Part shown: positions 12,007-57,175 of the stretch, one piece after another
Layout: each line of letters begins with the position of its first letter
Numbering within the stretch: position 1 is the stretch's first letter
Assembly: GCF_000210295.1 (NCBI RefSeq)
Contig: NC_026742.1
Location: 744,001-808,000 of the forward strand
DNA length: 64,000 nucleotides
Direction: 5' to 3'
Source: Trypanosoma brucei gambiense DAL972
Lineage: Eukaryota; Euglenozoa; Kinetoplastea; Trypanosomatida; Trypanosomatidae
Made by a program: the position numbers and the translations under genes
The notes under the pieces: generated by a model
What the model was told of the DNA's origin: nothing
What the model saw: the letters and a program-made list of their open reading frames with translations, nothing else
Databases searched by the model: none

Positions 12007-12590
12007 TTGAGTTTGTGTTGTTGGGATGGTTCAGTATTCTGCTGACCATTTGCTGTACGTTTGTGTTTTTGTCGACATAGTTTTTCGTTATGTGTAGTTT
12101 GCTGCAAGTTAGGAAGTTGAGTCATCTAGGAGAGTACGCATTTTGCCCGTATGTGGAATTGGTATCTTAATTGAGAATATAACGTCTCCAGTTGTGGGAT
12201 ATATATATATATATGTATATATATTCTACATGCATATCTAATTCACAAACAATGCGTCACCTTGAGGTGGCTGTTCACTACGAACTTTGTTACGCTTGGT
12301 TCCTCAATTTTTGGGTTGGACTCACCACTCATTGTGATCGGCTACGTTGTGGTACCCGGTTTATTGACTCTCTGCCTCTAGTGGCACATTATTAACTGTG
12401 CATGCCACTGTGCTTTTCGCCCTTATTTGCTCCCTTTACGGTGGCCAATTTATATTTAACTTCTTCTTCATTTTGAGTGCCTTATTTGCTGTCATCACTC
12501 TTTAATTTTATATTTGGGCTGATTCTTATAACCTTGTCACTACTATTTATGCATACCCTTGTATCTTACGTTAGATCACACTTCTTACCT
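12007..12590 (+). other. Intergenic region of MFS repeat unit 1
   Basis: 584 bases of 3' UTR and leader with an AT microsatellite (about 12199-12228). A CTTCTTCTTCATTTTGAG tract has its AG at 12476-12477, a plausible splice acceptor for the next gene. The same sequence recurs at 14025-14608. Confidence 0.6.
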
Positions 12591-14024
12591 ATGAGCAGCA
12601 CAGACAATGATATCGTTGAGGAGCCCCGCAGTTTCCGGAAGGAATTAGAGAACAGTAACGTTAGGGGTGTGTTGTTGTTTGTATTCATTGATGGTGCTGC
12701 GTCCTCCATATGGTCTTCCCAACCGTACCAGGTGATGGTCAGTCGCCTTGCAGGTGATACTGCGGTTGGTTGGGTATCCGCTGCCGCTGGAGTCGCACAA
12801 ATCGTTGGCGCATTGATAGCTGGTGGTGTTCGCAATGTGCCCCGTCAAGTCATCTGCCGCCTCAGCGCCTTTTGTGGTTTGGTTGCTGTGATCATGTCAG
12901 TTTATGGTATTACAACCCAAGATATAATGATATATTACTTTGCTTCTGCGCTGTGGGGCATGTATGGAGGGATGGCGTTCACGGGGACTGAAGCGCTGTT
13001 TGCTGACAGTGTTGAATCAGGAAAGCGCGGCTTCGTGTACAACCTGAAGTGGATCAATGAAACAACAAGCTCATGCGTTGGCTCCCTTATCCTGCTTATC
13101 ATGACACTCTACCTTGGAAACGACTGGGATACAAATGTCTTGAAGATTCTCATGTATACCGGTCTTGCCGTTCACCCCACCGCTTTCTTTGCTTTACTCG
13201 GCATGAAAGACAAAAACATTCTCCACGTTGATGATGGGTGTGAAGATTGCGAGCAATTCGCATCGGAAGCAAGCCAACGTCGACTGACTGATGGTGACTC
13301 ATCAACCAAACCTTTACTGGGAGGAACTAAGGATATAATCGAAGAGGACGGCTGGGATGAAGAATCTGAGGAAGAGGAAAGAAATTGCTGTGACTACCTC
13401 TGTACTGGGGTCACATCCTCCTGGCAATGGCTCTTCACTGTGTCAGCTTTACCGTTTTTGCTCGCGTTGGGTAATTTGCTTATTTCCGTTGGCTCTGGAG
13501 TCACAATGCAATACATTTCCCTTTATTTTATAAAAGAACGACACGTAACTCCTATTATGTTTTTCATTACAAACATTGCTGTCAATATCTGTATCGCGCT
13601 TTCTTCCACGATGGTGCGTTATCTCAGCGAGCATCACCTTGATCGTGTGAGTGCCACCATACTCGTACGCACACTTAGTGCATCACTGTTACTAACAATG
13701 GGTGTGATTGAACTTCCTCTTGTTGCGCTTCTACCGATATATGTTTGCCGTAATGCTTTAATGAATTCCACCGCGGGAGTTACACGCAGTATCATTATGG
13801 ACTGCGCTCGCAGGGAGAACCGTGCGATGTGGGCTGCATTCGAGTGTTTTGTTTCTTTCATGTGGTCGGCAAGTTCTGTAATGGGCGGATACATTGCTAG
13901 TGCGAAGGGATATAAGTATACATTTGTCATCACTGCCCTAATTCACTTTATTGCTATGTTTGTATTGGTGCCGGCCATATCTGGTGTGCGGCAGTTGGAT
14001 AGGCGCGGCAAGGTTTTGCGGTAA
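12591..14024 (+). CDS. Major facilitator superfamily transporter, copy 1
   Basis: A 477-residue multi-pass membrane protein with roughly 12 hydrophobic segments split by an acidic cytoplasmic loop (about residues 205-255, with an EESEEEE run and a CC pair after it). This is the usual MFS layout of two six-helix halves. The substrate is not evident; the family is broad and includes nutrient, drug and folate/biopterin-type carriers. Start choice: ATG at 12591 begins a soluble N-terminus; an in-frame ATG at 12549 would add 14 residues, and both follow a possible acceptor at 12476-12477. It is nearly identical to the next gene, differing in one short membrane segment and in the C-terminal tail (RRGKVLR here). 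Confidence 0.9.
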   Translation: MSSTDNDIVEEPRSFRKELENSNVRGVLLFVFIDGAASSIWSSQPYQVMVSRLAGDTAVGWVSAAAGVAQIVGALIAGGVRNVPRQVICRLSAFCGLVAVIMSVYGITTQDIMIYYFASALWGMYGGMAFTGTEALFADSVESGKRGFVYNLKWINETTSSCVGSLILLIMTLYLGNDWDTNVLKILMYTGLAVHPTAFFALLGMKDKNILHVDDGCEDCEQFASEASQRRLTDGDSSTKPLLGGTKDIIEEDGWDEESEEEERNCCDYLCTGVTSSWQWLFTVSALPFLLALGNLLISVGSGVTMQYISLYFIKERHVTPIMFFITNIAVNICIALSSTMVRYLSEHHLDRVSATILVRTLSASLLLTMGVIELPLVALLPIYVCRNALMNSTAGVTRSIIMDCARRENRAMWAAFECFVSFMWSASSVMGGYIASAKGYKYTFVITALIHFIAMFVLVPAISGVRQLDRRGKVLR

Positions 14025-15731
14025 TTGAGTTTGTGTTGTTGGGATGGTTCAGTATTCTGCTGACCATTTGCTGTACGTTTGTGTTTTTGTCGACATAGTT
14101 TTTCGTTATGTGTAGTTTGCTGCAAGTTAGGAAGTTGAGTCATCTAGGAGAGTACGCATTTTGCCCGTATGTGGAATTGGTATCTTAATTGAGAATATAA
14201 CGTCTCCAGTTGTGGGATATATATATATATATGTATATATATTCTACATGCATATCTAATTCACAAACAATGCGTCACCTTGAGGTGGCTGTTCACTACG
14301 AACTTTGTTACGCTTGGTTCCTCAATTTTTGGGTTGGACTCACCACTCATTGTGATCGGCTACGTTGTGGTACCCGGTTTATTGACTCTCTGCCTCTAGT
14401 GGCACATTATTAACTGTGCATGCCACTGTGCTTTTCGCCCTTATTTGCTCCCTTTACGGTGGCCAATTTATATTTAACTTCTTCTTCATTTTGAGTGCCT
14501 TATTTGCTGTCATCACTCTTTAATTTTATATTTGGGCTGATTCTTATAACCTTGTCACTACTATTTATGCATACCCTTGTATCTTACGTTAGATCACACT
14601 TCTTACCTATGAGCAGCACAGACAATGATATCGTTGAGGAGCCCCGCAGTTTCCGGAAGGAATTAGAGAACAGTAACGTTAGGGGTGTGTTGTTGTTTGT
14701 ATTCATTGATGGTGCTGCGTCCTCCATATGGTCTTCCCAACCGTACCAGGTGATGGTCAGTCGCCTTGCAGGTGATACTGCGGTTGGTTGGGTATCCGCT
14801 GCCGCTGGAGTCGCACAAATCGTTGGCGCATTGATAGCTGGTGGTGTTCGCAATGTGCCCCGTCAAGTCATCTGCCGCCTCAGCGCCTTTTGTGGTTTGG
14901 TTGCTGTGATCATGTCAGTTTATGGTATTACAACCCAAGATATAATGATATATTACTTTGCTTCTGCGCTGTGGGGCATGTATGGAGGGATGGCGTTCAC
15001 GGGGACTGAAGCGCTGTTTGCTGACAGTGTTGAATCAGGAAAGCGCGGCTTCGTGTACAACCTGAAGTGGATCAATGAAACAACAAGCTCATGCGTTGGC
15101 TCCCTTATCCTGCTTATCATGACACTCTACCTTGGAAACGACTGGGATACAAATGTCTTGAAGATTCTCATGTATACCGGTCTTGCCGTTCACCCCACCG
15201 CTTTCTTTGCTTTACTCGGCATGAAAGACAAAAACATTCTCCACGTTGATGATGGGTGTGAAGATTGCGAGCAATTCGCATCGGAAGCAAGCCAACGTCG
15301 ACTGACTGATGGTGACTCATCAACCAAACCTTTACTGGGAGGAACTAAGGATATAATCGAAGAGGACGGCTGGGATGAAGAATCTGAGGAAGAGGAAAGA
15401 AATTGCTGTGACTACCTCTGTACTGGGGTCACATCCTCCTGGCAATGGCTCTTCACTGTGTCAGCTTTACCGTTTTTGCTCGCGTTGGGTAATTTGCTTA
15501 TTTCCGTTGGCTCTGGAGTCACAATGCAATACATTTCCCTTTATTTTATAAAAGAACGACACGTAACTCCTATTATGTTTTTCATTACAAACATTGCTGT
15601 CAATATCTGTATCGCGCTTTCTTCCACGATGGTGCGTTATCTCAGCGAGCATCACCTTGATCGTGTGAGTGCCACCATACTCGTACGCACACTTAGTGCG
15701 TTTTTCATGCTGATAATGGGTATGGCTGAAC
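13714..15731 (+). repeat. Tandem repeat unit 2 of the MFS array (2018 bp)
   Basis: Second copy of the 2018-bp unit, including the C-terminal part of MFS copy 1, the intergenic region and most of copy 2. A partial third repeat of the gene tail follows at 15732-16017, after which the sequence becomes unique. Confidence 0.9.
14025..14608 (+). other. Intergenic region of MFS repeat unit 2
   Basis: Same content as 12007-12590: shared 3' UTR, AT microsatellite (about 14217-14246) and candidate acceptor AG at 14494-14495. No additional gene. Confidence 0.6.
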
Positions 15732-16048
15732 TTCCTCTTGTTGCGCTTCTACCGATATATGTTTGCCGTAATGCTTTAATGAATTCCACCGCGGGAGTTA
15801 CACGCAGTATCATTATGGACTGCGCTCGCAGGGAGAACCGTGCGATGTGGGCTGCATTCGAGTGTTTTGTTTCTTTCATGTGGTCGGCAAGTTCTGTAAT
15901 GGGCGGATACATTGCTAGTGCGAAGGGATATAAGTATACATTTGTCATCACTGCCCTAATTCACTTTATTGCTATGTTTGTATTGGTGCCGGCCATATCT
16001 GGTGTGCGGCAGTTGGACAGACACGCAAAAGCGAAATCACGAACTTGA
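14609..16048 (+). CDS. Major facilitator superfamily transporter, copy 2
   Basis: A 479-residue transporter identical to copy 1 over most of its length, including the acidic loop. Two differences are visible. A patch of ten residues in a late membrane helix reads FFMLIMGMAE instead of SLLLTMGVIE. The C-terminus reads RHAKAKSRT instead of RRGKVLR because homology ends at about 16017. Its 3' UTR is therefore unique, so copies 1 and 2 could differ in mRNA stability even though their 5' regions match. An upstream in-frame ATG at 14567 is possible. Confidence 0.9.
   Translation: MSSTDNDIVEEPRSFRKELENSNVRGVLLFVFIDGAASSIWSSQPYQVMVSRLAGDTAVGWVSAAAGVAQIVGALIAGGVRNVPRQVICRLSAFCGLVAVIMSVYGITTQDIMIYYFASALWGMYGGMAFTGTEALFADSVESGKRGFVYNLKWINETTSSCVGSLILLIMTLYLGNDWDTNVLKILMYTGLAVHPTAFFALLGMKDKNILHVDDGCEDCEQFASEASQRRLTDGDSSTKPLLGGTKDIIEEDGWDEESEEEERNCCDYLCTGVTSSWQWLFTVSALPFLLALGNLLISVGSGVTMQYISLYFIKERHVTPIMFFITNIAVNICIALSSTMVRYLSEHHLDRVSATILVRTLSAFFMLIMGMAELPLVALLPIYVCRNALMNSTAGVTRSIIMDCARRENRAMWAAFECFVSFMWSASSVMGGYIASAKGYKYTFVITALIHFIAMFVLVPAISGVRQLDRHAKAKSRT
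15732..16017 (+). repeat. Partial third repeat (MFS gene tail)
   Basis: Matches 11696-11981 and 13714-13999. Homology stops within the codons after GCGGCAGTTGGA, near 16017, just before the stop codon. Confidence 0.88.
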
Positions 16049-21907: not shown

Positions 21908-22318
21908 TACATATATACATCGAGGGCAGCATACCTTGTGAAACTCATGACTGGTGCCATATTCCTGCATCTCTCTTTCTGCGACTTTCATAACTGATGG
22001 CACTATGAACATCGTCTTTTTTCATCACATTCAGCTTCTGTGCTGCCTTTTAGTGTGTCCACTCAATTTTTTTGAATTCATTTTGCGCTGTTCTGGGCCT
22101 TTACGGATAGTAAGTTAAATTCAGTGACTAAGGTAAACCCTACAGGGAGCTTGTTTATCATTTATTTATCTTACTACACCAGTTTATACAAGCTCATACA
22201 CACTTTCTCTCCACCTTCCTTATTTCTTTGTTAATTTCCCCACCGAGCTATATACTCCGCAGCATAAAGTGTCAGGTTCAAATAGCTGCCAGTTTTTGGC
22301 GTCTGTGGAAAGCGAACG
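21908..22318 (+). other. Spacer with candidate acceptor for the methyltransferase-REP gene
   Basis: Contains a clear pyrimidine tract (22200-22244) followed by the first AG at 22246-22247, giving a ~71-base leader. No gene. Confidence 0.6.
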
Positions 22319-25246
22319 ATGAAGTCATCTGATCATGACGAAGAGGGCTTAGTCGATTTATTTGCCGCGGGTGACGAAGTAGAACCCGAATACACAATTG
22401 AACAAATGATTATCGATCGCCAGGAGTTGAGTCGTGAAGGGGAGACAGCTTGTGGCTTCACTCCGCTTTTCGACCGCTTCGACAATCCGACAAAGCGTGA
22501 GGAAGGTGTGGAAACGTCCCCCAAGTTGCCTTTACGGCCGATGCAAGTGTACTTCCGCAATAAGCGACACAGCCTTTGGGGTCATAAACTATGGAACGCG
22601 GCACGTTATTTTGTAAAGCGGATAGACAGCGGTATGATCGATGTGCGCGGGAAAACTGTGTTGGAACTGGGGGCGGGACTTGGTGTACCATCTCTCGCAG
22701 CATTCCGCAACGGCGCACGGTGCGTTGTAGTGACGGACTATCCGGACGAGTCGCTGATGGAGATATTGAGAATGAATACCGAAACAAATTGTACGTTGGA
22801 CCAATTGGACCCTACTGCCGCAGAGTTTCTTAGGCAGGAAGCGGTTCGGTTGAAATCTGCGTATATGTCTGTTCACAAAGGACAGGAAACAGGGAAGGGT
22901 GATGATCGGGAAGGAAAAGGTGTTCCATTGAATTCGCGGTGTGTCGTTCAGCCTCTACTGTGGGGTAACACTGATCATATTCGTGAAGCCCTCAAGCACA
23001 CTAGTGGCACGGGCTTTGACGTGCTATTACTCTCCGACATTCTCTTTAACCATGTTTGTAACGATGACCTCGCGGGTACTGTTGTTCAGTTACTTCAACG
23101 TAGTCCAAAAGCGGCGGCGTACTGTGCCTTCTCCCACCACCGCGCGCACAGACAGGTGGAAGACTTGATGTTCTTTGATATATGTGCATCACGCGGCCTT
23201 TTGTGCGAGCAGATTGATGAGGAGGATTACCCTCTCATGTTCCCCGACGACCGTGGCCCGGAGGAGATACGGCGGCCGGTGAAGGTGTATAAGTTGTCAC
23301 ATCGGTTTGATGCGGCAGGTGTGCCGCTGGAGCCGGGGCAGGAAACGTATGATGTGGTAGTGCAGGGCACGGGCATGGTGGAGTGCTTTCTTGCCGCTGC
23401 ACTTGCACGCAGTGGGGTGCGTGTGTTACAATGCGATGCCCAAGGTGAATATGGCGGACCGTTCAAAACACTGACGGTTCAACAGTTGCGAAAATATATT
23501 CTACAACCGCCCAACGACTCAGGTGATGGATCAAGCCCATCTGATGGCTACGCAGGTGGGAGCCAGCAGGTTAGTAGCAGGGGAAGTAATAAAGATCCGA
23601 GTGGTGTTGGGAACAATAACGGCAATGGGGACGAAAACACCTCGACCATATCGGTGGATTTAATGGATACACTCGATGTCCGAACGCAGCACCGCTTTCT
23701 GCTTGACCTCCTCCCTGTACACTACTTCTCTAAGGGTGATACCGTTCGAAAGTTTGTGGAGTCGGACATGGCACGGCATGCTGAATTTCAATGTTGCAGT
23801 AGTTTTGCCTTTTTGTTTCGGTGTGGTGAGACTGACGAAAGCTGTGCATTCCGACTGCAAAGCGTTCCGCTGACGCGGGCACAAGTATTCTCTGCTGATC
23901 ATATTGGACTGATGCAAAAGCGTCGTTTAATGAAATTTGTGAAGGATGTGGCTGCCCCACTCGCCGAACACCTGCATGCCCGGACAGCTGCTCTGGGTGA
24001 GGAAGAGCCCGGGCACACCGATGTGCAAGAGGTGGGAGAGCTTTTCCAGCAAGAGGTTTCCCAACATCCCAACGAAACACTTAGCGAGTTGCTGCGCCGG
24101 AAGTACGCTGTTGATGAGACGACATTAAATATTGTGACGCTTCTGGGGCAGTTGGAGACCTCATCTGAGCCCTGTATGCTGCGCGCTGTAGACCTGGTGC
24201 GCCAAGTATTAACATCTATTGGGGCTTACGGGGGTTCAACACCTTTTCTTGTGCCTTTGTATGGCGCCTCAGAGGTACCACAAAACATGTGTCGTATCGC
24301 AGCCGTATGGAATGCTGTGTTCGTGTTACGTCGGAGTGTAAGCCGTGTCTTGAAGGGTCTTGATACACCGACAGTGGAAATGAGCAACCGACAACATGTG
24401 AAGGCTAAAGTTGTGGTCGTACCCCGTGCGTTGGCCTCCAAGTTCGCTTCGGTGTCTGGCGCTAATGATGCTAATGATGAGAATATAACACGTTTCTCTC
24501 GGGTTGTCATCGTAGCTAAGAAACCGCTGGTGACGTGGAAAGCGCTATCTTCCTCCGGGTGCTGTGAAGAAGAGGTAACCACAGCAACTGAAGGTTTGGA
24601 GGGAACGGCCAAGACATCTAGCGTAGAGGGGATCCCGCCGTTGGTGTTCGCGCTGTGCCAGGCTCAACCCGGTGTGGTCGTTCATGTTCAACAGCAAAGC
24701 GCATCGTCCGAACAGGCGCCCAAAGAAGGCAATGCCGTTGTCGTACATTTCACTGTAAACAACTGCCAAATGAGCGCCAAGCAACTGCACAGATTCGTCG
24801 AGGAGTCCTTCATAGCATCTGCTGCTTCAGCTGGTGAAGACTGTGTTGTGCTGGATAAAGATGCAATACTCTTTTTCGCTTCCTTCGTACTGGATGAACG
24901 AGAGGAAGCACTCCGTGGGGTTGCCCATGGCGCCTGGGATTTCCTGGCTAGTGAAACGGAGAAGGCCCATCCCTTTGCTGTGGAGGAGTATCGCAAACGC
25001 CAGAAGAAAAGCAAATGCGATTTAGTCGAATTCGATGATGACGGCGTGCTAATTGTTCCGGTGCCCACGCTCCTACAGAATCTTATGGACGATGGAGCCT
25101 ACCTGAAGGAAGCGCAGCAGGCGTATGAGACCGTGGTGGCACGACTTCAGATGCAGATGAAGGAGGAGGAGGAGGAGGGTGACAAAACCAAACAATACGT
25201 GTTTCTCGAGCCCCTACCACCCGTTCCCTCAGTAAGTTCCCGATAA
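22319..25246 (+). CDS. Fusion of EFM7/METTL-type methyltransferase and Rab escort protein (REP)-like domain
   Basis: A 975-residue protein with two recognisable modules. Residues about 50-325 form a Methyltransf_16-type enzyme: LWGHKLWNAARYF (87-99), SAM motif I ELGAGLGVP (116-124), acidic loop VVTDYPD (137-143) and LLLSDILFN (237-245). This pattern is like the eEF1A methyltransferase EFM7. From about residue 343 the sequence becomes a GDI/REP protein: the dinucleotide-fold start YDVVVQGTGMVECFLAAAL (344-362) and GEYGG (376-380). The HFLLDLLPVHYFSKGDTVRKF-type block, AEFQCCSSFAF, LMKFV and LYGASEVPQN segments all occur in REP order. REP presents Rab GTPases to geranylgeranyl transferase; length and large insertions favour REP over GDI. 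Both halves are in one uninterrupted frame. The fusion is seen directly; the functions are inferred from the families. Confidence 0.85.
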   Translation: MKSSDHDEEGLVDLFAAGDEVEPEYTIEQMIIDRQELSREGETACGFTPLFDRFDNPTKREEGVETSPKLPLRPMQVYFRNKRHSLWGHKLWNAARYFVKRIDSGMIDVRGKTVLELGAGLGVPSLAAFRNGARCVVVTDYPDESLMEILRMNTETNCTLDQLDPTAAEFLRQEAVRLKSAYMSVHKGQETGKGDDREGKGVPLNSRCVVQPLLWGNTDHIREALKHTSGTGFDVLLLSDILFNHVCNDDLAGTVVQLLQRSPKAAAYCAFSHHRAHRQVEDLMFFDICASRGLLCEQIDEEDYPLMFPDDRGPEEIRRPVKVYKLSHRFDAAGVPLEPGQETYDVVVQGTGMVECFLAAALARSGVRVLQCDAQGEYGGPFKTLTVQQLRKYILQPPNDSGDGSSPSDGYAGGSQQVSSRGSNKDPSGVGNNNGNGDENTSTISVDLMDTLDVRTQHRFLLDLLPVHYFSKGDTVRKFVESDMARHAEFQCCSSFAFLFRCGETDESCAFRLQSVPLTRAQVFSADHIGLMQKRRLMKFVKDVAAPLAEHLHARTAALGEEEPGHTDVQEVGELFQQEVSQHPNETLSELLRRKYAVDETTLNIVTLLGQLETSSEPCMLRAVDLVRQVLTSIGAYGGSTPFLVPLYGASEVPQNMCRIAAVWNAVFVLRRSVSRVLKGLDTPTVEMSNRQHVKAKVVVVPRALASKFASVSGANDANDENITRFSRVVIVAKKPLVTWKALSSSGCCEEEVTTATEGLEGTAKTSSVEGIPPLVFALCQAQPGVVVHVQQQSASSEQAPKEGNAVVVHFTVNNCQMSAKQLHRFVEESFIASAASAGEDCVVLDKDAILFFASFVLDEREEALRGVAHGAWDFLASETEKAHPFAVEEYRKRQKKSKCDLVEFDDDGVLIVPVPTLLQNLMDDGAYLKEAQQAYETVVARLQMQMKEEEEEGDKTKQYVFLEPLPPVPSVSSR

Positions 25247-25590
25247 GTGGTATGACGGAAACCGGAGCAAAATCACTATTCAAGAAAAAGAAAAAAGGGG
25301 CGCCGTCTCTCCATCGGGAGTGTAATCAAGGGGAATGTCACGGCGCGCAATGGTCACAGTGGTGAAGTGACCATACAACACTTGAGCAAGTGGTTGCCTT
25401 TGGAGGGCAACAAAGGCAAATAACAATGTCTTACCAAATAATACATACATGTCTAACGTTAACTGTGCTCTGCTCCGCTGGAAACGGCGGATCTGCCCTT
25501 TGCTATCGGTGTTATTTTCCTTCCTGCGATATGTGGCTGCGCGCGTGCACACAAGAACGTAATATCTGCCGTATTCCCTGTGCTTCATGG
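25247..25590 (+). other. Spacer before the DPM2-like gene
   Basis: 344 bases. A pyrimidine-rich stretch at about 25496-25526 is followed by AG at 25554-25555. If that is the acceptor, in-frame ATGs at 25426 and 25531 would be removed and translation would begin at 25591. Confidence 0.5.
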
Positions 25591-25977
25591 ATGCTTTACC
25601 TCCTGTTTCTTCTCACATTTATGTGCCCACTACCCATCTGCAATCAAGCAACCAATTTGACTGAGGAATTAAATTTGCTACGCTGTAGCGATTGGTTTGC
25701 GTACGCGTATGCGCTTAGGGATATGTTATACGACCGCAGCATAGCGAGGGTTTTCATCGTTTTGGCAACGCTTTTGTATGTTTACTACGTTGTGTGGATC
25801 GGTGTTACACCCTTTATTGTGTCGTCCCACTTCACGCAGAATTTTTTTCCTCCCCGTGAGTATGGCATATTCGTTGCTGCTGCTGTGATGACGCTTATGC
25901 TGGGCGTCACTGTCACGTTGGCGTCTGTACGAACCATATTGTGGGCCGGGGCGGTGGGTCCGGAGGAAAGCGGGTGA
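25591..25977 (+). CDS. DPM2-like small membrane protein
   Basis: A 128-residue protein whose C-terminal half resembles DPM2, the small two-helix ER subunit of dolichol-phosphate mannose synthase. That subunit also associates with GPI-GlcNAc transferase in animals. Membrane segment 1 (about 52-77) ends in VVWIGVTPFIV, then SSHFTQNFFPPREYGI (78-93) matches the family loop pattern PFIDS-H-FLPR-YA, then membrane segment 2 (about 93-116). An N-terminal hydrophobic stretch (1-19) may be a signal or a third segment, and a potential N-glycosylation site NLT lies at 22-24. The frame is open further upstream (ATG at 25426 or 25531); 25591 is chosen from the likely acceptor and from family length. Family assignment is by eye. 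Confidence 0.65.
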   Translation: MLYLLFLLTFMCPLPICNQATNLTEELNLLRCSDWFAYAYALRDMLYDRSIARVFIVLATLLYVYYVVWIGVTPFIVSSHFTQNFFPPREYGIFVAAAVMTLMLGVTVTLASVRTILWAGAVGPEESG

Positions 25978-26594
25978 AACGAGGTTTGATTGAAAGGGTT
26001 GTTTGCTTTGTGTGGTGGTACGCATGCACCTATTTGAACTAATAGCGGGGTAAATAGGTGGGTGCACTTCTGTTGCCTGAGCTCCCAGTGCCGTTTTACT
26101 ACACGGCCTTTATTGTTGCTATTATTGCTATTGTTCACTTCTGCGCACTGCATGTTGTTGCTTCATGAGGGGGGGGGTGACATTCTGGTAGTGCAGCGTG
26201 GTTTGCTGGAGTTGTGGTGACACGATTATATTTTTACGGTTTCTGGTACTGCTTTATCTGTTAGGTCTTTCCTTTCTTTGCATTATCTTATTTTCGTGTA
26301 CTCTTCTGCTGTTTGTTGGGTTTTATTTCCTAACCAAATGGGCTGTTTCTTGAAACTTTGTCTGTGCACTTCTCCCGCACGCACTGTTCTGATCTGACTG
26401 TAAAATTCTGCTCCGTCGTGTGGTTCACAGGACCGTGAAATAAACCAGATTACATACGCATATACCTAACGGTGATTGTACGTCATTTGGCACAGCAGAC
26501 AAGTAACGCTTTTAAAAGGTACAGCGGGGTGGTAGGTATTTTAACAAAGAAGAAACGAGAACACGGCATCAAACATACTTGTGTCACCTGCTTA
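25978..26594 (+). other. Spacer and PEX16 leader
   Basis: Holds a G9 run (26169-26177), several pyrimidine tracts from 26264, and a TGTGGTTCACAG site with AG at 26429-26430, a plausible acceptor. The PEX16 frame is open back into this region but has no ATG before 26595. Confidence 0.5.
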
Positions 26595-27956
26595 ATGGTG
26601 TCCCGGGTATTCAGTGCGTATGCGGAGTGGGTCCGTAGGAACGCCGACAATGTGGCCTCCATGGAGCGGTTTACGCACATGCTCACGATTATCCTTATGA
26701 GCCCTAACAACATGTTAAAACACGAGATAGGGAACACCATCGTTAACATACAGAACTTCTCTAACCACGCTATCATTTCTTCTGCTGGAAGAAAACTAAG
26801 TGTTGCGGAGCAGATATCTATTGTAGGACAAATTATTCGGAAAGCGGAATGCCTACTTGAGTTGCTACTACGCCGTTACCGAGGACATAGGACAGCATGG
26901 AACTTCTTGTTGATTCTGCAGCTCCTGAAGTGCTTCCTAAACCTGGTTGCGCACCAACAAATGTGTCTTCTGCCTTCCATATGGCAAGCTTTGCGACGCC
27001 AGCTCCGGCGCCTTATCACGTTTCCAAAAAAACTACTCGGGCCATCAGGTGTATCGAGTGGTAACTCTGGTGCCGCCTTATCCAATTTACCCCAGAGCAG
27101 TCAAGCAGCGGAACGGACTACACCACTCGTTATTCCACGTGTGGTTGCCACCCGTATGTTCAGGGACCGGAGTTCCGAAACTGTGGGTGAGGATGCCGAT
27201 TTCTCTGAAGCTGGAAAGGGCAGTAACAGCGGCGGGGGTAATCCCGATGTGTTGCCATGCACGGCGTATGATGTGCTGGGTGCTGTTGTGGATTTTTTGT
27301 TGTTGTTGCGCCCACTCTTTTTGTTGTACTGCGCCCGGTCTGCGTTCCCGACTACTGCTATGGATGCTTGCTCCCAAATAGCCTCAGAGGTAGAAGACAC
27401 AACCCTCGATGATGGACCACGGGATAGCAATGTTACCGACAAAAAGTCCGATTACGGCAGCTTCTTTTCTGTGAAGTCGTTGATAGCAGATGGTCTCAAG
27501 GAATCGCTTCTGGGAAATTGGAGTGTCTGGACCCTTTTCTTAGGTCTAGATGTGATTTTTGCAGCCTTGGCTCGTTACATTTTCCATTACCGTAAGCCCA
27601 TTGTGTGCATCAACAGGGATGCTAGAAACTACAGCGGCGTCGGCAGTAATGATGGTAGGCAAATTGCACATGACGGCGAAGTGCCATCTCCGGAGTTGAG
27701 TGGCGTCAATTCAGCGGCAGAGCCCGACACCGTCGTCTCCCGTGACAGCCTCCGCGTGCAACAAACGATGCATAATTTAGTTTGCTGTTTCCTTCGTGAT
27801 CCTTTCTTCGGTTCTGTGCTGCGGAGGTTCATTTACGACAACTTCATTATCGGACGAATTAACGGTATACCACTGGTGGGATCACTCCTCGCGCTGCATG
27901 TTGCCTCTTTCCTCTGCAGGCAACACTACTCGTTCATGTACTCTATCGGAGAGTGA
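26595..27956 (+). CDS. PEX16: Peroxin 16 (glycosome/peroxisome membrane biogenesis)
   Basis: A 453-residue member of the PEX16 family, which recruits peroxisomal membrane proteins; in kinetoplastids the target organelle is the glycosome. The start aligns with the family: a YAEWVRRN segment (9-16) like the YQEYVTRHP of other PEX16 proteins, then a helical region to about 140. A long variable insert follows (about 180-225). The conserved VVDFLLLLRPLFLLY (about 231-245) matches the family's EFLYIARPLLHLL block. The segment WSVWTLFLGLDV (about 310-321) matches W-PWLLAGVVDV. Near the C-terminus is the RDPFF block (about 400-415) and a final HYSFMYS like the family's KIYFYSW. Divergence is high but block order is complete. 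ATG 26595 is the first in frame. Confidence 0.82.
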   Translation: MVSRVFSAYAEWVRRNADNVASMERFTHMLTIILMSPNNMLKHEIGNTIVNIQNFSNHAIISSAGRKLSVAEQISIVGQIIRKAECLLELLLRRYRGHRTAWNFLLILQLLKCFLNLVAHQQMCLLPSIWQALRRQLRRLITFPKKLLGPSGVSSGNSGAALSNLPQSSQAAERTTPLVIPRVVATRMFRDRSSETVGEDADFSEAGKGSNSGGGNPDVLPCTAYDVLGAVVDFLLLLRPLFLLYCARSAFPTTAMDACSQIASEVEDTTLDDGPRDSNVTDKKSDYGSFFSVKSLIADGLKESLLGNWSVWTLFLGLDVIFAALARYIFHYRKPIVCINRDARNYSGVGSNDGRQIAHDGEVPSPELSGVNSAAEPDTVVSRDSLRVQQTMHNLVCCFLRDPFFGSVLRRFIYDNFIIGRINGIPLVGSLLALHVASFLCRQHYSFMYSIGE

Positions 27957-55768: not shown

Positions 55769-57175
55769 ATGAAGACTGTAATTTCCACTGCTTTTGCACG
55801 CGTTGGTGAGCTTGCTTGTCAGCAGGATTCATTCCTGCGTGAGATAACCGCTCGTGTCGTATCCTGCGAGGCTGCCGCTGTGAACAGAAACAATAGTGGT
55901 GCCTCTGGTAAAAAGAGCAAAAGTAGCGGTACACAAGTGGAGCTGCCGCAAAGCTACGACGTGATACTCACCGACTCTGTTCTGTTTCCCGACGGTGGTG
56001 GGCAACCGTGCGACCATGGTGTTCTTATCCGGCGAGAAACAAACGAGGAACTGCCGGTCCGTGTGGTTCAGCGGCGAGGTGATTTGTGTGTGATGAATTT
56101 GCCGTGCATGCTCAAAGTCGGTGAGGACGTCCAACTCCGGGTTGACTGGGACCGCCGTCTCGACCACATGCAGCACCACTCCGCGCAGCATTTGTTGACT
56201 GCTGTCGTTGAAGACCCCGGTTTCTGTGGTTTGCCAACAGTGTCGTGGGCGCTAACGCAGCCATACTGTCATATCGTTCTTCCAACAGGAAAAAGGATTG
56301 AGCCTGAGATGGTGCAGCGAATCGAAGAGCACTGCAATCGTGTCATTGCGCGGGCGGTTCCTGTACGGTGCAGAGTATACAGCAGCAAAGAGGAGTATGA
56401 AAACGACTTGCAGAGGGAGCCGGAGAAAAATGACGACGGAGGAAGGCTGCGCGGCTCGCGACCCATTCCTCCAGATGTTGCGGGGCCCATTCGTATAATT
56501 GATATGGAGGGTATTGACTGTTGCACTTGTTGTGGCACTCACGTCACCAACTTGGCGCAGTTGCAAGTATTGAAGCTCCTACACCAAGAAACCAAAGGAG
56601 ATACACTGAAACTGTTCTTCATTGCAGGTGAACGCGTGAGGCGTTTCTTCGGCGACATGTATGGTCGCGAGAGGGAGCTAATGAAAGAAATGGGTGGCAT
56701 ACGGCCTGAAGATTTCGTTTCGGCAGCCATTCGAAAGGGAAAAGACTTCGTGGAGCTGGAGAAACGATTGAAGCACATGACTCAAGAGCTTATGAAACTG
56801 CGGAGCGAGAAACTTATCGCAGAGGCAAAACAGTTGTCAGAAAACGGGAAGGGTGACAGTGCCAGTCACAGGCCTCCTGTTGTCGTTTACCGTCGCGATG
56901 ATGTTGACGCAGATTTCTTCAGCGGACTTCGGGATGAACTGCGACAAGCGTGTCCCAACTGTGTCGGTGTCTTTGCTTGGGCAATGGCTCCTCTAACCGC
57001 AGCCAAAACGGGGCAATTTATGATTGTTGGCCCAACTGAAAGTGTAGAGGTTTTGGCGCCGGTTGTGTGTGCAGCTCTCGAGGGTAAGGGAGGCATGTCG
57101 AAGTTTGGCTACCGTGGAAAGGGAAGCCTTTGCGCTTGGGAAGATCTCGTGAAGGAGTTGACTTCCAAGGGGTAA
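55769..57175 (+). CDS. Alanyl-tRNA editing protein, AlaX/AARSD1 type
   Basis: A 468-residue freestanding editing enzyme that hydrolyses mischarged Ser- (or Gly-)tRNA-Ala. The N-terminal domain has FPDGGGQP (73-80). The editing core has zinc ligands HxxxH at H137-H141 (HHSAQH) and a CxxxH motif at C254-H258 (CCTCCGTH), as in AlaXp-II/AARSD1. It has no aminoacylation domain. A C-terminal region with a helical hairpin (about 320-355) resembles the oligomerisation/C-Ala region found in AARSD1 (about 410 residues in man). An insertion around 208-236 is charged. ATG 55769 follows a strong splice acceptor. Confidence 0.92.
   Translation: MKTVISTAFARVGELACQQDSFLREITARVVSCEAAAVNRNNSGASGKKSKSSGTQVELPQSYDVILTDSVLFPDGGGQPCDHGVLIRRETNEELPVRVVQRRGDLCVMNLPCMLKVGEDVQLRVDWDRRLDHMQHHSAQHLLTAVVEDPGFCGLPTVSWALTQPYCHIVLPTGKRIEPEMVQRIEEHCNRVIARAVPVRCRVYSSKEEYENDLQREPEKNDDGGRLRGSRPIPPDVAGPIRIIDMEGIDCCTCCGTHVTNLAQLQVLKLLHQETKGDTLKLFFIAGERVRRFFGDMYGRERELMKEMGGIRPEDFVSAAIRKGKDFVELEKRLKHMTQELMKLRSEKLIAEAKQLSENGKGDSASHRPPVVVYRRDDVDADFFSGLRDELRQACPNCVGVFAWAMAPLTAAKTGQFMIVGPTESVEVLAPVVCAALEGKGGMSKFGYRGKGSLCAWEDLVKELTSKG

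Follow-up and report, generated by a model that had tools for sequence, protein, structure and literature searches.

We analysed a 64,000-nucleotide stretch of the Trypanosoma brucei gambiense DAL972 genome (hereafter the window; positions 744,001 to 808,000 of the forward strand of contig NC_026742.1, or C9:744001-808000 of the 22.1 Mb, 11-contig assembly that was searched). A first-pass annotation had proposed that one 975-codon frame in this window joins a methyltransferase resembling those that modify eEF1A to a Rab escort protein (REP). The frame is open as described, from an ATG and with the stop included in the span (Table 1), and the predicted product has a mass of 107.8 kDa. Over the same span the other two + frames contain 46 and 67 stops, and the three − frames contain 21-30. 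The motifs quoted in the annotation (among them LWGHKLWNA, ELGAGLGVP, LLLSDILFN, GEYGG, AEFQCCSSFAF and LYGASEVPQN) were all present in the translation, and profile searches detected both domains above their cut-offs.

The N-terminal half matched Pfam Methyltransf_16 (E 5.1e-10, 39.8 bits, cut-off 21), and a PDB sequence search retrieved the Cyanidioschyzon merolae methyltransferase 3bzb (E 3.6e-23). Methyltransferase fold matches were confined to model residues 23-334, and an NCBIfam scan of the protein gave only matches far under cut-off. Among the best 120 of 292 matches to this half, named EFM7/NNT1 proteins were among the nearest stand-alone relatives. The [D/E]xx[Y/F] active-site motif described as defining methyltransferase Family 16 (PMC5324768) was present, with D240 and F243 kept in all 39 aligned fusion rows. 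P0001, a T. brucei equiperdum protein that differs from the window's at 1 of 975 residues, was excluded from the alignments, and P0035 was also left out of a 38-row alignment. Across those 38 fusions E116, G118, G120, T139, D140, D240 and F243 were invariant, as were W87, W92 and W215, candidate counterparts of W222 of Efm2, the invariant active-site Trp of Family 16. On sequence grounds, the N-terminal domain is very probably an active methyltransferase.

The C-terminal part matched the Pfam GDI (GDP dissociation inhibitor) family (PF00996; E 4.7e-22, 78.6 bits, cut-off 23), and in the PDB sequence search rat REP-1 (E 6.6e-24) ranked ahead of Rab GDI (E 7.4e-18). A profile derived from the fusions scored 198 bits with REP-1 and 116 bits with GDI, and both the best profile match and the best fold match of this part were REP. 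For residue comparisons and conservation counts, the truncated or damaged models P0035, P0037, P0050 and P0051 were excluded. In the SCR3B segment, which we take to form the Rab-binding platform, the glutamate aligned with E652 was found in 34 of 35 fusions and the arginine aligned with R659 in all 35; the same residues occur in 7/7 stand-alone REPs and in the GDI of the same genome. The position of REP-1 Phe279, presumably a contact with Rab geranylgeranyltransferase (RabGGTase), was Phe in 35/35 full-length fusions and 7/7 stand-alone REPs, whereas the same genome's GDI has Leu. This residue goes unmentioned in PMC7839719. A GDI identity for the C-terminal part was thus ruled out by the profile scores, the fold matches and the Phe residue, and we consider it highly probable, from homology, that this part functions as a REP. 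The combination of an EFM7-like methyltransferase with a REP rather than a GDI in one protein is upheld.

Table 1. Features of the methyltransferase-REP gene, in window coordinates
Feature	Residues	Position	Strand	Evidence
Pyrimidine-rich tract and first downstream AG (22246-22247), likely trans-splice acceptor		22205..22247	+	0.92 pyrimidine
Complete open reading frame (ORF), methyltransferase-REP fusion	975 aa	22319..25246	+	ORF list, Pfam, homologues aligned full length
EFM7-type Family-16 methyltransferase domain	27-330	22397..23308	+	Pfam, PDB match, fold matches, EFM7 profile
S-adenosylmethionine (SAM)-binding motif I, ELGAGLGVP	116-124	22664..22690	+	No variation at E116, G118, G120 or P124 across 38 rows
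Family-16 active-site motif [D/E]xx[Y/F]	D240-I-L-F243	23036..23047	+	Alignment of 39 rows
Short junction between domains, predicted ordered	331-342	23309..23344	+	Predicted local distance difference test (pLDDT), Met/pyrimidine scan, homologue lengths
Rab escort protein domain	343-967	23345..25219	+	
Low-complexity insert (S/G/N-rich)	401-434	23519..23620	+	pLDDT, conservation
Codon of F524, aligned with REP-1 F279, Leu in GDI	524	23888..23890	+	PDB alignment and residue comparison
SCR3B-like segment	E652...R659	24272..24295	+	Residue comparison

The annotation had held that a separate canonical REP elsewhere in the genome would speak against its proposal, and neither search for one found it. 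A GDI-family search gave at least three matches and a stand-alone REP query gave four, and in both cases these comprised only the fusion ORF and the canonical Rab GDI gene on contig C3 (591 bits). Genes for RabGGTase beta and an alpha-like subunit are encoded elsewhere in the genome. Searches with the Methyltransf_16 family and with an EFM7 profile revealed no second EFM7-like gene; the profile scored 193-195 bits with the fusion domain, with a gap down to 38.5 bits. Within the reach of the family, profile and REP-query searches, a separate REP or EFM7 copy was rejected. A second Methyltransf_16 gene does lie on the same contig about 9 kb past the right end of the window (L010, C9:816821-817099), and with 24.4 bits against the EFM7 profile it is not EFM7-like. 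Of the three near-identical eEF1A loci, one was read, and its product starts with MGKEKVHMN. When the genome was searched with the Spermine_synth family, a single strong match (204.7 bits) appeared, along with a weak sub-cut-off ORF, L029 (L029:454-2247; C8:1425824-1426099). The best PDB match of this 597-aa ORF was the METTL13 C-terminal domain (E 1.4e-9), and no other Pfam domain was listed for it at E 0.001. Its SAM motif reads GLHSGE where METTL13 has GLGGGS, and in our mapping the second Post II aspartate was unmatched in the alignment; L029 is possibly a relict or altered relative of METTL13-C.

Trypanosome genes are processed from polycistrons, and the locus might yield two separate proteins by internal trans-splicing or by proteolysis; the annotation had pointed to a processing or splice site at residues 325-345 as the feature that would indicate this. 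No Met occurs between residues 307 and 353, and Met 353 itself lies inside the GTGMVE motif. A scan of the ORF and its upstream region found no pyrimidine-rich tract at the junction, where the maximum was 0.60 per 25 nt. Pyrimidine content reached 0.92 upstream of the ATG, a tract that with its AG is likely the trans-splice acceptor of the fusion mRNA; it was at most 0.80 in the methyltransferase part, and one tract of 0.84 lay within the REP part at 24867, distant from the junction. Homologues were continuous at full length (882-1281 aa in 35 rows), and the stretch matching residues 328-345 crossed the junction in one frame; this stretch is 16-19 residues long in 31 of the 39 fusions that were aligned, and 26-74 in the remaining eight. 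Because the junction lacks a Met and a tract, and because homologues are continuous in one frame, nothing here points to two products. Splicing was ruled out by the scan; the sequence leaves proteolysis possible, although the junction is ordered in both predicted models, and we regard two products by either route as highly improbable. An assembly or annotation chimera was ruled out by homologue architecture and by the methyltransferase tree: the identical domain order recurs in many independently sequenced species and in environmental contigs, and the methyltransferase halves diverge in a tree-like manner.

The fusion was present in all named kinetoplastid matches, including Leishmania, in answer to the orthologue check that the annotation had suggested; the named genera were Trypanosoma, Leishmania, Leptomonas, Lotmaria, Porcisia and Novymonas. 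Of 42 homologues, both Pfam domains are listed for 36 and were also detected in P0037 by a domain scan. The remaining five are fungal proteins of the EFM7 type; in four of them (P0038-P0041) a second, unrelated Pfam domain is listed, which may be a real fusion or a gene-model error. Each homologue search scored about 8000 candidates, so that the absence of a stand-alone kinetoplastid REP from them is weak evidence. P0037 (723 aa) has Arg-rich, REP-unlike sequence near its end that resembles a frameshift or gene-model error, and P0050 (T. vivax, 402 aa) carries a fusion product name yet ends soon after the REP domain starts, which could reflect a partial gene model or a genuine truncation. In a midpoint-rooted tree of 39 fusion and 22 (of 118) stand-alone methyltransferase domains, for which the tool warned of long branches, the fusions formed one side of a 100/99 branch. 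Eight of them (P0025-P0028, P0030, P0034, P0036 and P0037) fell outside a 100/100 group whose 31 members include every named fusion, with weak support for the branching order among the eight. Given this branch support and the outlying fusions, the fusion seems to have arisen once and is probably older than the divergence of the named trypanosomatids.

Conservation was uneven along the protein. Columns conserved at 97% or more among the 35 full-length fusions numbered 62/260 in the methyltransferase (residues 71-330), as compared with 11/58 (343-400), 0/55 (401-455), 21/245 (456-700) and 6/275 (701-975) in the REP part. The methyltransferase is thus the better conserved half and is under stronger constraint. 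The low-complexity insert had pLDDT below 50 at residues 401-426 and 428-434 and falls at the site between SCR1B and SCR2 where REPs are described as carrying lineage-specific inserts (PMC1994686). The AlphaFold model of the full-length protein, from 38 sequences, had a pLDDT of 84.0 and a predicted template modelling score (pTM) of 0.86, with junction pLDDT values of 93 (321-330), 89 (331-340) and 95 (341-350); a model of the divergent homologue P0028 had values of 80.3 and 0.80. The high pTM of the whole chain suggests that the two domains hold a defined mutual placement.

The reading that we favour, with a probability of about 0.6, is that the gene encodes a kinetoplastid REP bearing an N-terminal EFM7-type protein methyltransferase with eEF1A as its likeliest substrate. 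The C-terminal 625 residues would capture new Rab GTPases and deliver them to RabGGTase, a role assigned from homology, from a residue specific to REPs and from our searches, which found no other REP despite the presence of RabGGTase genes. The N-terminal 330 residues would constitute an apparently complete SAM-dependent Family-16 methyltransferase acting on a protein substrate. Since yeast Efm7 is described as methylating eEF1A at Gly2/Lys3 (PMC5324768, PMC6109062) and the eEF1A locus read in this genome starts MGKEKVHMN, the likeliest target would be the eEF1A N-terminus at these residues, and we think it reasonably probable that this is the main substrate. With the domains apparently joined by a short ordered junction, one protein would supply both activities, and therefore their levels and locations would be tied; any coupling between Rab escort and methylation, or regulation of one domain by the other, is hypothetical. 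A stronger form of coupling, in which SAM binding or methylation is linked to Rab prenylation in a bifunctional "methyl-prenyl" escort, seems rather unlikely; either its substrate would be a protein of the Rab cycle, or methylation of eEF1A would depend on Rab delivery or the reverse, so that one molecule links translation with membrane traffic. The annotation had conjectured methylation of a Rab, of the prenyltransferase or of a carboxyl-terminal region, or else a coordination of translation and trafficking.

According to the main rival, the Rab prenylation machinery has become the new target of the methyltransferase, with REP as a substrate-holding arm for methylation of Rabs (for example near the N-terminus or in the C-terminal tail), of RabGGTase or of REP itself. 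We give this a minor but real chance. No split version occurs among the named kinetoplastid matches listed, the two domains look joined as a single body in the AlphaFold model, and L029 could serve eEF1A instead. Furthermore, 15 columns show almost no variation among the fusions yet differ from the majority of stand-alone EFM7-like proteins. However, the HHR motif, part of this fusion-typical set, is also found in the unfused algal protein 3bzb, core EFM7 residues are kept (48 of 59 EFM7-conserved columns), and the target sequence MGKEK is kept in eEF1A. Family-16 enzymes are also described as very substrate-restricted (PMC5324768). A non-catalytic scaffold, serving REP stability or SAM sensing, would have a precedent in the inactive methyltransferase partners of trypanosomes such as the PRMT1 prozyme (PMC10908127), but the invariance of the seven residues listed above in the 38 aligned fusions and the better conservation of the methyltransferase half make it improbable.

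Several observations weigh against the favoured reading. Of the 59 EFM7-conserved columns, 11 hold a different residue in the fusion, among them 246/248 just after the DxxF motif, 276/278 after the HHR motif, and 320; these differences could mean a different substrate. Moreover, the EFM7-like set was picked by similarity to the fusion protein, which biases its conserved columns towards agreement. The resemblance of L029 to the C-terminal domain of METTL13, the human eEF1A N-terminal methyltransferase, points the same way, though this argument is weakened by a SAM motif that looks degenerate. The listing of a second domain in the fungal proteins P0038-P0041 indicates that fusion alone need not mean coupling. 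Finally, domain packing is read from pTM and the ordered junction, and the junction is longer in the eight fusions noted above. On balance, the sequences tip slightly towards the domain having kept its EFM7-type activity on eEF1A.

Just downstream of the fusion, an ORF at 25390-25977 (+) encodes 195 residues, of which 115-175 match the DPM2 domain (Pfam E 2.6e-12); it is listed from a GTG, and its true start is therefore probably internal. It is followed by a Pex16 peroxin homologue at 26472-27956 (+; Pfam E 1.1e-20). Elsewhere in the window, adjacent MFS-like ORFs of 515 and 517 aa at 12477-14024 and 14495-16048 (+), both slightly under the Pfam cut-off, are likely a tandem pair. An AlaX-like ORF at 55769-57175 (+) has a tRNA_SAD (alanyl/threonyl-tRNA-synthetase editing) domain, with a synthetase match only below cut-off.

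The annotation had left open whether the fusion was already noted in kinetoplastid databases, and it is: entries from L. donovani, Lotmaria passim, Novymonas and T. vivax carry product names that describe both parts ("Lysine methyltransferase/GDP dissociation inhibitor", "methyltransferase/GDP dissociation inhibitor" and similar wordings). In open-access full text, with subscription journals mostly uncovered, we recognised no paper that treats the fusion. T. brucei and T. cruzi are among the species of the REP/GDI tree of Rasteiro and Pereira-Leal 2007 (PMC1994686); the REP section of that paper does not mention a methyltransferase, the word's single use being in the reference list, and it is absent from the main text of PMC4654808 and PMC5107955. 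The fusion is thus real and little studied, yet already recorded. If the sole REP and the sole EFM7-like enzyme of a parasite lineage are one molecule, Rab prenylation and eEF1A-type methylation would be inseparable in loss and in regulation. Rab prenylation is essential where it has been studied. On that condition the fusion would make it possible to test concretely whether enzymes in a fusion are coupled or have only been inherited together. It would also open a way into what eEF1A N-terminal methylation is for, which is still unknown according to PMC10908127.

The C-terminal part resembles REP-1/CHM and yeast Mrs6 in fold, in its SCR1A-, SCR1B- and SCR3B-like motifs and in the Phe at the F279 position, but its region 701-975 has diverged and the fusion adds an N-terminal methyltransferase of about 330 residues, so that this REP differs from animal REP by a whole enzymatic domain. 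Rab GDI belongs to the same superfamily and in this genome is a separate canonical gene without the REP Phe. With EFM7/NNT1, the fungal Family-16 methyltransferase of eEF1A Gly2/Lys3, the fusion shares the DxxF, SAM, LWGHxLWNA and MFxxDxG signatures; the stand-alone matches are mostly short proteins (among the best 120 of 292), and the fusion departs from them at the 11 columns described above. 3bzb (C. merolae CMQ451C), an uncharacterised Family-16 protein, is a 281-residue chain without a REP part. METTL13, which in humans methylates eEF1A at K55 and at the N-terminus, would share the presumed target site, the eEF1A N-terminus, but belongs to a different sequence class, and eEF1A N-terminal methyltransferases are described as seeming to have arisen twice (PMC6109062).
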